Positions 3,987 to 28,568 of a stretch of 64,000 nucleotides of DNA are shown one piece after another. How positions within the stretch are numbered: the stretch's first letter is position 1; each line of letters begins with the position of its first letter. Source of the DNA: Rhodobacter sp. (GTDB lineage Bacteria > Pseudomonadota > Alphaproteobacteria > Rhodobacterales > Rhodobacteraceae); assembly GCA_027484145.1 (NCBI GenBank), contig JAIXUH010000013.1, positions 124,001 through 188,000 of the forward strand, read 5' to 3'. Both the position numbers and the translations under genes were made by a program. The notes under the pieces are model-generated. The model ran no database searches and was not told the origin of the DNA. It was given only the letters and a program-made list of their open reading frames with translations.

Positions 3987-4055
3987 CGAGTTTCGAGGAG
4001 ATGGGCCAGTTAGGTCTCTAGCCCAATCAGAGAACTGTTTGCCAAAGGGTTGCCC

Positions 4056-4112
4056 TTAGAAAACACGCCCCATGACTGTCCCGACACCTATCTCCAATAT
4101 CACTCTAGACAC
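4056..4112 (-). CDS. Candidate 18-aa leader peptide or small protein
   Basis: A GTG-initiated ORF of 18 codons (MSRVILEIGVGTVMGRVF) ends in TAA. It has the strongest ribosome-binding site in the window: 17 consecutive bases (4112-4128) complement the 16S rRNA 3' end, placed 7 bases from the GTG. It lies between yhhQ and arfB, followed 70 bases later by an intrinsic terminator. The peptide is short, hydrophobic and unlike anything I recognise. It may be a leader peptide controlling arfB or a stand-alone small protein gene. A non-coding role for the SD-like stretch cannot be excluded. Confidence 0.5.
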   Translation of the reverse strand: MSRVILEIGVGTVMGRVF

Positions 4113-4128
4113 TGGATCACCTCCTTTC
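4113..4128 (-). promoter_or_regulatory. Exceptionally long Shine-Dalgarno
   Basis: On the minus strand GAAAGGAGGTGATCCA directly precedes the GTG of the mini-ORF. Ordinary sites in this window pair over 4-6 bases; this one can pair with the whole anti-SD tail of 16S rRNA. Confidence 0.7.
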
Positions 4129-4153
4129 AAAAGATTGCCGATATGGTCAGCCT

Positions 4154-4182: not shown

Positions 4183-4803
4183 TTACGCTACCTTTGCCAC
4201 GAACTTTGCAACAATCAGACGGAATGGCACCAGTGCCACCAAAGCGAGCAAAAGCTTTATCCCCCAGTCGGCAACGGCAAGTGACACCCACAAGGGGGCG
4301 TCCGGACCATGCCCCAAAAGCGGGATCACCTCATTCGCCCAAGACACGTCATTGCCGGGCTCAACAAAGCTGAGCTGCGCCGAAAAGGCGATTGTGAAGA
4401 AGATCGCCGTATCAACCGACGCGCCGGCAAGGGTGGAAATCAGTGGTGCGCGCCACCAACTGCCCTGCCGAAAGCGGTTGAACACGGCGATATCCAGCAG
4501 TTGCGCGGTCAGGAAGGCCAGCCCCGAGGCGACCGCCACACGCAGGGTCACAAGGGGGCCGAACTCGCCCATGATCTGGGTGCCGATCAACGAACAGACG
4601 ACCCCCACCAGAAAGCCTACAACGACCACCTTGCGCGCGGCGGCAGCCCCCTGCAGGCGGTTGGTCAGGTCTGTAACCAGAAAGGCGAAGGGATAGGTAA
4701 AGGCGCCCAGCGTCAGCCATTGGCCATAGAGGAACTGGACGAGGATGTTCGAGGCCACCACAACGGCGGCCATGGCAAGAATGCCAGGGATCAGTTTTTG
4801 CAT
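4183..4803 (-). CDS. yhhQ: Queuosine precursor transporter (VUT family)
   Basis: A 206-aa inner-membrane protein of the YhhQ/vitamin-uptake-transporter-like family, which imports the queuosine precursors preQ0/preQ1 in E. coli. About six hydrophobic helices are visible, with the family blocks FAFLVTDLTNRLQG (residues 39-52), LTAQLLDIAVFNRFR (near 98) and LISTLAGASVDTAIFF (near 121). The ATG is preceded by a preQ1-I riboswitch-like structure, which independently supports the substrate assignment. Transcribed towards arfB. Confidence 0.93.
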   Translation of the reverse strand: MQKLIPGILAMAAVVVASNILVQFLYGQWLTLGAFTYPFAFLVTDLTNRLQGAAAARKVVVVGFLVGVVCSLIGTQIMGEFGPLVTLRVAVASGLAFLTAQLLDIAVFNRFRQGSWWRAPLISTLAGASVDTAIFFTIAFSAQLSFVEPGNDVSWANEVIPLLGHGPDAPLWVSLAVADWGIKLLLALVALVPFRLIVAKFVAKVA

Positions 4804-4810
4804 CTGCGTT

Positions 4811-4845
4811 TTTTCCGTTTTTTATGCAAGGTCGCGGAGACTTGC
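4811..4845 (-). promoter_or_regulatory. preQ1 class I riboswitch (candidate)
   Basis: On the minus strand stem P1 is GCAAG/CUUGC (4845-4841 with 4830-4826) and encloses the 10-nt loop UCUCCGCGAC. It is followed by the A-rich tail AUAAAAAACGGA. CGG in the tail (4817-4815) pairs with CCG in the loop (4837-4835), giving the H-type pseudoknot of preQ1-I. The base after the loop triplet is C (4834), matching the ligand-recognising cytosine of the Bacillus subtilis queC leader, whose tail AUAAAAAACUA is nearly the same. The CGGA used in the pseudoknot is the only SD-like sequence before the yhhQ ATG, so preQ1 binding would block translation. Confidence 0.85.
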
Positions 4846-4907
4846 CCAGCCTGCGCCGGGGCCCCAAAGACGGGGACGAATGCGCCTAGCCTAATGGCCT
4901 TGGGCTG

Positions 4908-5861
4908 TCAATTGCCCGTCGCCGGCACAGAAAGCCGGTATTCGACGATTTCGCTGCGCAGAACCGGCAGAAAGTTGTCATCGGTGATCATGGTCAACCG
5001 GATGTCCCCAGCCGCATCGCGCCAGACAGACAGGCCTTCCATATTGTCCTGCAGGCCGATGGGCGTTCGAAGAACCTCTTCTTCATCCGACAACCCGTCC
5101 TCCGCGACGCGGAAAGAGCGGATGCGTGAGGTAAAGCCGATCAGGCCATGAAACTCGCGTTCCAGCACGTAAAAGCGGCCATCGGGGCCGAAATCCGACC
5201 CGACGGGCAAAAAGTTTTCGCGCCGGGGCAGATCAAAGGGCTGCGTCCACTTCCCGTCGCGGTAACGCCAGATCGGAAAGGCGGGACCATTCGCGTTGCC
5301 CGGCGGACCTGTCAGCAGGTGCAGGCGTGAACCGCCTGTCAACTCTTCCGGCATGGTATAGACCGTGCCCTGTGCATCGACGGCAACGGATTCAAACGAT
5401 GCGTTGCGCGGATAGCTGCGAAAGACCTTTGGCGCGGGCAGATTTTGTGCACGGCCATCAACGGTCGGATAGCGCAGGACGCGTGTTGCGCCTTCGAACG
5501 ACACATAGAACGAACCATCCGGCGCCTGCGCCAGACCTTCGCTGTCGCTGCGGGTCACGCGCAGACGCTCGTCCTCATGCGATTTCAGATAGGTAAGCGG
5601 GCCCGTGCTTACCGAAACGATGGCCCCTGTGGCATCACGTTCGACCGTGCCCTGAACAAACGCACCGCGGTCACTGAGCGCGACAAAGGACATGCCGTCG
5701 TCTGCCATTTCGATGGCCGAAAATCCCCCGAACTGTTCCTCCGGACCAGTCAGGCGGATGGCACCCACGAAACCTTCGGGCGGTGGGGGGTTTGCACTTC
5801 CCTCCAGCCCAAGGGCCAGCAGTGCCATCGCGGCTAGCGCGAGGCGAGAACGTCTTTGCAT
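4908..5861 (-). CDS. Secreted esterase-like/phytase-like protein
   Basis: A 317-aa protein with a basic N-terminus and hydrophobic signal peptide (residues 1-23, ending in a small-residue SAN), so probably periplasmic. The rest resembles the 'esterase-like activity of phytase' family (PF13449): FSAIEMADDGMSFVALSDRG, DSEGLAQAPDGSFYVSFEG and SFESVAVDAQGTVYTMPEE are repeated beta-propeller blades with conserved Asp/Glu. Enzyme activity is unproven for most members. The gene begins inside the 3' end of mepA (28-base overlap), making it the last gene of the UMF1-transporter/mepA unit. Confidence 0.8.
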   Translation of the reverse strand: MQRRSRLALAAMALLALGLEGSANPPPPEGFVGAIRLTGPEEQFGGFSAIEMADDGMSFVALSDRGAFVQGTVERDATGAIVSVSTGPLTYLKSHEDERLRVTRSDSEGLAQAPDGSFYVSFEGATRVLRYPTVDGRAQNLPAPKVFRSYPRNASFESVAVDAQGTVYTMPEELTGGSRLHLLTGPPGNANGPAFPIWRYRDGKWTQPFDLPRRENFLPVGSDFGPDGRFYVLEREFHGLIGFTSRIRSFRVAEDGLSDEEEVLRTPIGLQDNMEGLSVWRDAAGDIRLTMITDDNFLPVLRSEIVEYRLSVPATGN

Positions 5862-27360: not shown

Positions 27361-28518
27361 TCAAGCAGCTTGGGCCAGCGCGGCAATCTCGGCGTTAAAC
27401 GCGTGGGCAATCCACGGCATCAGGGCCTGAACGTCTGCCGTCTCTACTGTCGATCCGCACCAGATCCGCAGACCAGCCGGCGCATCGCGGTAGGCGCCAA
27501 TGTCAAAGGCGACCCCGGCCTTTTCCAGCCGCTTGGCCACGGCCTTGGCAAAGGCTTCGCCATCGACAATCCGCGCATCGTTGAACTTCAGGCACACGCT
27601 GGTGGTCGAGGCAATCTCGGGCGTCTCGGCCAGATTTTGAAGCCACGGGTTGGCGGCGCAGAAGTCCCACACCACTTGGGCATTGGCCGAAGCGCGGTTG
27701 ACCAGACCTTTCAGCCCACCAACCGACTTTGCCCATTTCAGCGACACAAGGTAATCTTCCACCGCCAACATCGACGGGGTGTTGATCGTCTCGCCTACAA
27801 AGATGCCTTCGATCAGCTTGCCCTTGGCGGTCAGCCGGAAAATCTTGGGCAGCGGCCATGCGGGGGTATAGGTCTCCAACCGTTCGACCGCGCGGGGCGA
27901 CAGGATCAGCATGCCGTGCGCGCCTTCGCCGCCCAGCACCTTCTGCCAGCTGAAGGTCACCACATCGAGCTTCGCCCAGTCCATCTCCATCGCAAAAGCG
28001 GCGCTGGTGGCGTCGCAGATGGTCAGGCCCTTACGGTCGGCCGGAATTGCGTCGGCGTTGGGCAGTCGGCAGCCGCTGGTCGTGCCGTTCCATGTGAACA
28101 CCACGTCGCTGTCAAAATCGACGGCCGCAAAATCAACGATCTGCCCATAAGGCGCTTTCTTGACCTTGGCATCCAGCTTCAACTGCTTCACCGCATCGGT
28201 CACCCAGCCTTCGCCGAACGACTCCCATGCCAACATCTCCACCGGGCGGGCGCCCAACAGCGTCCACATCGCCATCTCGACCGCGCCGGTATCGGAACCG
28301 GGGACAATACCAATACGGTAATCGGCGGGAACGCCCAAAATCTCACGGGTGAGGTCAATCGCCTCTTTCAGCTTGGCCTTGCCAACAGCGGCACGGTGCG
28401 AGCGCCCCAAAGGCGCATCGGCAAGCATATCAAGGGAAAAACCGGGAACCTTGGCACAGGGGCCAGAGGAAAAGCGCGGGTTAGCCGGGCGCGCAGCCGG
28501 GGCGATCAGATCAGCCAT
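27361..28518 (-). CDS. serC: Phosphoserine aminotransferase
   Basis: A 385-aa PLP enzyme converting 3-phosphohydroxypyruvate and glutamate to phosphoserine. Blocks: [15 protein letters not shown] (residues 13-27), [42 protein letters not shown], and [13 protein letters not shown] with the PLP lysine near residue 195. This matches the alphaproteobacterial serC branch. The ATG at 28518 has GAGGAT upstream and a candidate serC RNA motif in its leader; a longer in-frame reading to 29010 is antisense to serB and not real. Confidence 0.96.
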
Positions 28519-28568
28519 GGTATCCTCACAGATAAATGCCCTTCGTTGGGGAAGGGTGTCCCACGGAC
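28519..28568 (-). promoter_or_regulatory. Candidate serC RNA motif in the serC leader
   Basis: On the minus strand, directly upstream of the serC SD (GAGGAT), two adjacent hairpins occur: GUCC-GUG-GGAC (28558-28568) and CCCUUC-loop-GAAGGG (28539-28556), then a short A/U-rich linker. The published serC RNA motif of alphaproteobacteria also consists of closely spaced hairpins in serC 5' leaders. I match it on position and general layout, not on a checked consensus. The remaining serC-serB gap (28569-28695) must hold the divergent promoters but shows no clear -35/-10 pair. Confidence 0.45.

Follow-up and report, generated by a model that had tools for sequence, protein, structure and literature searches.

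What kind of RNA, if any, is encoded by the 35 nucleotides that precede yhhQ in this Rhodobacter genome? We have considered the question in a window of 64,000 nucleotides, this being the whole stretch of DNA analysed, and in the yhhQ leaders of related bacteria. Our answer, to which we would attach a probability of roughly 0.88, is that the yhhQ leader of Rhodobacteraceae is probably a class I preQ1 riboswitch that acts as a translational OFF switch of a salvage transporter, a reading drawn from comparison of sequences.

On the minus strand, positions 4811-4845 read GCAAG-UCUCCGCGAC-CUUGC-AUAAAAAA-CGGA, and here the sequence-only reading, which had described a class I-like pseudoknot, was exact in both sequence and coordinates. 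Helix P1 is formed by GCAAG (4841-4845) and CUUGC (4826-4830), the usual core in Rhodobacteraceae being four pairs, CAAG/CUUG, with the fifth mostly unformed. The enclosed loop, UCUCCGCGAC (4831-4840), supplies in order U6, C7, position 8, the P2 strand C9-C10-G11, L2, A14 and the specificity base C15. In the numbering of the T. tengcongensis (Tte) riboswitch, which is given by homology and with L3 and P1 lengths in the window slightly unlike those of Tte, the loop is U6 C7 U8 C9 C10 G11 C12 G13 A14 C15 and the tail is C30 G31 G32 A33; the roles of the loop and pocket bases are taken from passages of PMC10622847. The anti-Shine-Dalgarno strand of P2, UCCG (4835-4838), can pair with CGGA (4814-4817), which contains the Shine-Dalgarno core GGA, the pairing being 4837-4835/4817-4815 plus an extra pair U4838-A4814. 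The leader parse places the A-rich L3, AUAAAAAA, at 4818-4825, all of these elements lying on the minus strand, and A33 is separated by ten bases from the yhhQ start codon, the ATG that opens the reading frame at 4801-4803 on the same strand. As a single sequence, this layout does not exceed the chance expectation for 64 kb: a generic class I descriptor matches two places in the window, and at least one match arose in 27 of 60 dinucleotide shuffles of it (mean 0.57). The motif is lifted above chance by its position before yhhQ and by its conservation.

Conservation was assessed in 90 Rhodobacteraceae leaders, comprising those of the 30 best yhhQ protein matches, the 40 that rank after these and 20 of lower rank, using a parser that demanded at least six of the seven P1 and P2 pairs. 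The pseudoknot was parsed in 88, the motif being absent from the leaders L082 and L086. Within the 88, U6 and C9C10G11 are invariant, C7 is found in 80 and A14 in 83, and the pair closing P1 at the pocket floor is G-C throughout, as it is across class I according to passages of PMC10622847. C15 occurs in every parsed row, and L3, which measures 5-9 nt after a 4-bp P1, always ends in AAAA; since both the specificity C and three or more consecutive A were required for a parse, their invariance is partly by construction, and both are visible in the raw leaders too. In two divergent loci (L291, L297) L3 ends in ACA or ATA. The first ATG follows the P2 3' strand by 3-11 nt in 86 of the 88 leaders, the distance being 8 nt in 38 of them.

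From the 81 non-identical leaders in this set of 88 we built a covariance model of P1 and sequence. With a threshold of E<=0.01 it matches 201 of the 248 family genomes, a figure that includes all 88 genomes used to build it. Outside the model set it matches 113 of 141 genomes that carry yhhQ and none of the 17 that lack it (p 4e-11); all 38 matches in non-model genomes whose position was checked sit 4-27 nt before the yhhQ match. A yhhQ match is present in 231 of the 248 genomes (in one, G168, only weakly), and 30 of these 231 gave no model match. When 30 further loci were viewed, drawn from these 30 genomes and from the eight weakest matches, 15 could be parsed and 15 could not, four of the parses being doubtful (L287, L298, L302, L313); for the no-match genomes, the motif parses in 7 of 22 among these loci and in 7 of 24 of all with viewed leaders, three doubtfully. 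A DNA pattern applied to species genomes, which may partly overlap the 248, returned at least 119 stretches, and among the 80 loci listed, 78 are followed by yhhQ. The two others are L177, where the contig ends 55 bases past the motif start, and L156, which is labelled Actinomycetes and lacks yhhQ; the remaining listed loci are labelled Rhodobacteraceae, or at a higher rank only (L160, L201, L218). The conservation that had been anticipated in related genomes is thereby borne out, and it bears on one alternative, that the motif is a chance pattern or reflects shared ancestry without function. The weak significance of the single sequence would suit such an explanation, but the core is kept in leaders whose upstream sequence has diverged much, and the model recovers the motif in most genomes on which it was not built, leaving chance or mere ancestry exceedingly improbable.

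This distribution has limits. In 385 genomes of the class, only five Rhodobacteraceae fall below 1e-5, three of them used for the model and two not, while 38 other genomes match at 6.8e-4 to 0.1, about the number due to chance at that cut-off; outside Rhodobacteraceae, matches in the class sample are at chance level only. Inspection by eye of 25 yhhQ leaders from other alphaproteobacterial families (L128-L152), drawn from the 81 yhhQ-bearing genomes of the class outside Rhodobacteraceae, found the motif in none. Searches of open-licence papers showed us no earlier description of such a preQ1 riboswitch from Rhodobacteraceae. The window's own genome contains a second, weak model match (C38:637515-637549, E 0.078).

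The pairing evidence is uneven among the helices. P1 is paired in all of 81 aligned rows, with both-side changes at two pairs, and its forms include CAAG/CUUG, GAAG/CUUC, CAUG/CAUG, AGAGG/CCUCU and AAAAG/CUUUU; the clear parses among divergent loci contribute AAAAG/CUUUU, AGAAG/CUUCU, GGAAG/CUUCC, AGAGG/CCUCU, CGAG/CUCG and CCAAG/CUUGG. Over the whole structure there are 13 both-side-changed cells where 2.2 are expected, a value reached in none of 500 shuffles, these controls taking no account of relatedness; where L3 is 5 or 7 nt long, MAFFT also displaces the tail, and the P2 counts of the 81-row test are distorted in those rows. A covarying P2 had been proposed from the window alone, and this stands for a fourth P2 pair, 8-33 (as it does for P1), and fails for the triplet that had been named, 4835-4837/4815-4817. 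CCG/CGG is invariant in the 88 leaders save for a single CGA, and the divergent locus L312 has UGG. The triplet differs from the Bacillus (B. subtilis) pairing, which the sequence-only reading gave as UAG/CUA, but the leader alignment shows no covariation at these positions within Rhodobacteraceae, and we have rejected that part of the claim.

Position 8-33 behaves differently. The 88 leaders have U-A in 63, C-G in six, A-U in one, U-G in one and G-U in two, the remaining 15 being mismatched (12 G-G, three G-A). Among 69 distinct rows, 56 have a standard pair here, shuffles giving 47.2 and not one of 5000 reaching the observed count; from the UA, CG and AU forms we judge that this pair varies in a compensatory fashion. 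Mapped on a yhhQ protein tree of 108 rows, there are at least 14 changes at position 8 and at least 13 at position 33, and the tree test finds only two to three independent pairs on supported branches and no significance. The G-G leaders (L011, L022, L023, L026, L049, L050, L055, L058, L062, L063, L067 and L087) have C34 in 12 of 12 cases compared with 13 of the 76 others, or 10 of 10 against 12 of 59 among distinct rows (p 2e-6), which suggests that G8 may pair with C34 over a bulged G to give an alternative P2, GCCG/CGG-g-C. A nested fold leaves the Shine-Dalgarno sequence unpaired and gives the leader no exceptional stability (z 0.25), by a method that cannot represent pseudoknots. As the triplet lacks covariation, the case for its pairing is drawn from the fourth pair, the E. 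coli comparison and the layout.

The lack of covariation in the triplet and the sequence conservation of loop and tail would also be compatible with an element that has no ligand, such as a conserved Shine-Dalgarno/anti-Shine-Dalgarno hairpin or a site for a protein or sRNA that merely resembles a riboswitch; about half of the shuffled windows do, after all, contain a chance match to a generic descriptor. We consider this very unlikely. Compensatory changes in P1, combined with a fixed loop and L3, fit an aptamer better than a simple duplex, and one and the same transporter gene follows 78 of the 80 pattern loci listed. Moreover, the conserved bases are those that contact the ligand in solved relatives, as these are described in passages of PMC10622847.

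The downstream gene occupies 4183-4803 on the minus strand and encodes a yhhQ-family transporter of 206 amino acids that matches Pfam Vut_1 (95.1 bits, cut-off 27.2) and TIGR00697, queuosine precursor transporter (83.8 bits, cut-off 50.95); the suggestion that the element stands next to a gene for the matching ligand's transporter is supported by the comparative evidence. QueA acts on preQ1-tRNA. The window's genome has TGT and QueA, and no QueF was detected in it, so it should depend on imported preQ1. The only QueC match in that genome is weak and falls inside a protein of 624 amino acids (L285 673-2547, minus strand, on contig C30), a size unlike that of normal QueC. Across the family, QueF scores above the cut-off in 49 of the 248 genomes, from which it follows that in most of them preQ0 could not become preQ1. 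Where yhhQ is lacking, 11 of 17 genomes have a strong QueF match (E of about 1e-29 or below), and where it is present, 37 of 231 do (p 2.5e-5), some of the genomes counted being incomplete; QueF and yhhQ tend toward mutual exclusion, as expected if yhhQ swaps synthesis for salvage.

These data weigh on a further possibility, that the same pseudoknot senses another 7-deazapurine (preQ0, queuine or a nucleoside) instead of preQ1. The G-C ceiling and an L2 longer than that of E. coli type III might shift selectivity, and passages of PMC10622847 state that the transporter family carries preQ0 as well as preQ1. The same source indicates, however, that the residues reading the edges of preQ1 in types II and III are those kept here. 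The enzymes in the window's genome, with a QueA that works on the preQ1-modified tRNA, and the scarcity of QueF in the family likewise point to preQ1, and we regard another ligand as unlikely.

Upstream of P1 lies a hairpin region, P0 (4845-4877, minus strand), which in the window consists of two hairpins, at about 4877-4861 and 4860-4845; most relatives have one hairpin abutting P1, and the window has an extra one between the first hairpin and P1. By local folding, the hairpin 3' end is 0-1 nt from P1 in 76 of the 88 leaders. P0 averages 6.2 contiguous pairs; exchanging its arms among leaders lowers this to 4.6 (at most 4.97 in 500 such swaps), and this control is better evidence for P0 than its fold stability, which only slightly exceeds that of shuffles (mean z -0.73). 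A promoter, TTGACA-17-TAGGCG, is proposed at 4883-4911 on the minus strand, with a start then expected near 4876, at the P0 5' end; it does not figure in the list from a strict sigma-70 scan. Of 75 leaders aligned on the 5' end of P0, 46 carry TTG(A/C) at -35 or -34, and a weaker bias toward A/T is seen at -11/-10; this placement implies that transcripts may start at P0, the whole leader then being roughly 55-75 nt.

A pattern scan found no terminator between the aptamer and the yhhQ start codon, and control is therefore probably translational. P2 holds the only Shine-Dalgarno-like bases of the leader, and the comparative evidence also supports the earlier suggestion of translational control. 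We propose a mechanism that begins when preQ1 is plentiful: with the G5-C16 pair as floor and G11-C30 as ceiling, the ligand would bind C15 between them, L3 would lock into the P1 minor groove, and P2 (UCCG/CGGA) would form, burying GGA and stopping yhhQ translation. Without ligand, P2 would open and the ribosome could bind. The pseudoknot itself, its gene context and its overlap with the Shine-Dalgarno sequence are evident in the aligned leaders; we infer that preQ1 would bind, that binding would repress, and that P0 would contribute.

The Rfam model offers a poor test of class membership. RF00522 (preQ1-I), the search proposed from the window alone, finds nothing at E<=10, whether in the leader of the window, in its genome or in 20 relatives. 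Under the same threshold, Rfam also gave no match to the E. coli type III leader (L091 5080-5240), whose identity is proven by crystallography; RF00522 seems blind to this member, and its failure here says little because a proven riboswitch is missed too. The window's only Rfam match at the gathering threshold is a serC leader (RF00517, 66.5 bits) at 28515-28566 on the minus strand. A separate conserved element lies between yhhQ and arfB (4002-4136, minus strand) and is similar in 28 of the 30 loci L001-L030. Its parts are AAAGGAGGTGATCCA, a strong Shine-Dalgarno sequence, a very short ORF, MSRxxLExxxGTV..., of some 18 codons, and farther downstream CTAACTGGCCCATCTCC, which could pair with AAAGGAGGTGATCCA; these are followed by a terminator-like hairpin that is seen by eye and absent from the pattern scan; its match to the Caulobacter sRNA CC2171 (RF01867) is below threshold (28.2 bits against 75, E 1.8e-4).

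By structural features, the yhhQ element belongs with class I. It is an H-type pseudoknot in which the P1 hairpin loop pairs with the 3' tail to form P2, it has the G-C floor, U6 and specificity C, and an A-rich L3 with a final A, and it precedes a gene of queuosine salvage, the gene context of the class being queuosine synthesis or salvage. The final A of L3 contacts the ligand in class I, according to passages of PMC10622847. The subtype is less straightforward. It shares with type II the AC before the P1 3' strand, A14 accompanying C15 in 83 of the 88 leaders. Type III, reportedly defined by McCown et al. in 2014, has UU beside the P1 5' strand, a 9-nt pyrimidine loop and an AAGG tail, whereas positions 6-7 here are UC in 80 of the 88 leaders and UU in four, the loop is mostly 10 nt and the tail is ACGG; for these reasons we have not filed the element as type III.

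We would give about even odds to a more specific proposal, that the element represents a fourth class I subtype characteristic of Rhodobacteraceae. This would combine the pocket and ceiling of type II (C7, G11-C30, A14) with a contiguous P2 like that of type III, in which the Shine-Dalgarno core is buried, and with a 5'-terminal hairpin stacked on P1, and it would serve mostly QueF-less bacteria for which imported preQ1 is the only source. If this is true, the switch would act as a gauge of salvage alone. Whatever its subtype, a preQ1 riboswitch in these leaders would extend the smallest natural riboswitch family to a large bacterial family that includes the marine roseobacters, where the standard RNA model detects nothing, and the prediction would be feedback control of queuosine precursor uptake in Rhodobacteraceae. 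The element would also provide a natural intermediate between the pockets of types II and III, and its many exchanges in P1, and some in P2, could inform the evolution of class I aptamers.

Comparison with known riboswitches places the element between established types. Among its closest known counterparts is the E. coli yhhQ leader, UUGGG-UUCCCUCAC-CCCAA-...-AAGG, which passages of PMC10622847 and PMC11625349 present as a proven class I type III preQ1 riboswitch of solved structure (PDB 8FZA). As these sources describe the E. coli RNA, both control yhhQ and have a pyrimidine-rich loop and a contiguous P2 that includes the Shine-Dalgarno GG; they also share AC before the P1 3' strand, an A-rich L3, the G-C pocket floor and U6. 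Mutation of the G5-C16 pair, U6, the last A of L3 or the specificity C weakens preQ1 binding in E. coli (passages of PMC10622847), and the Rhodobacteraceae leaders match these pocket residues base by base. Unlike type III, the ceiling is G11-C30 where E. coli has U11-A28, an exchange of the kind expected of a real pair in the aligned sequences; position 7 is mostly C and not a second U, the loop is mostly 10 nt and not 9, the tail is ACGG(A/G) in place of AAGG, and L3 is shorter and L2 longer. The Rhodobacteraceae element further adds the fourth P2 pair and the 5' hairpin abutting P1, and its hosts are an alphaproteobacterial family, while nearly all type III reports concern gammaproteobacteria, according to passages of PMC10622847.

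The likeness to type II, represented by T. tengcongensis and B. subtilis, lies in the pocket: passages of PMC10622847 and PMC11625349 give a 10-nt loop with U6, C7, G11, A14 and C15 at matching positions, and the AC specificity motif and G11-C30 ceiling are shared, C7, G11-C30 and A14 being the Tte ceiling (passages of PMC10622847). The element departs from type II in a P2 of three to four contiguous Watson-Crick pairs, that of Tte being partly non-canonical, in its failure to match RF00522, in its control of a proteobacterial salvage transporter, and in the 4-bp P1 core of most members. With type I it shares the H-type pseudoknot and the A-rich L3, but in type I, according to passages of PMC11625349, UC precedes the P1 3' strand and two ligands are bound by a larger loop, where the Rhodobacteraceae leaders have AC and a small loop.
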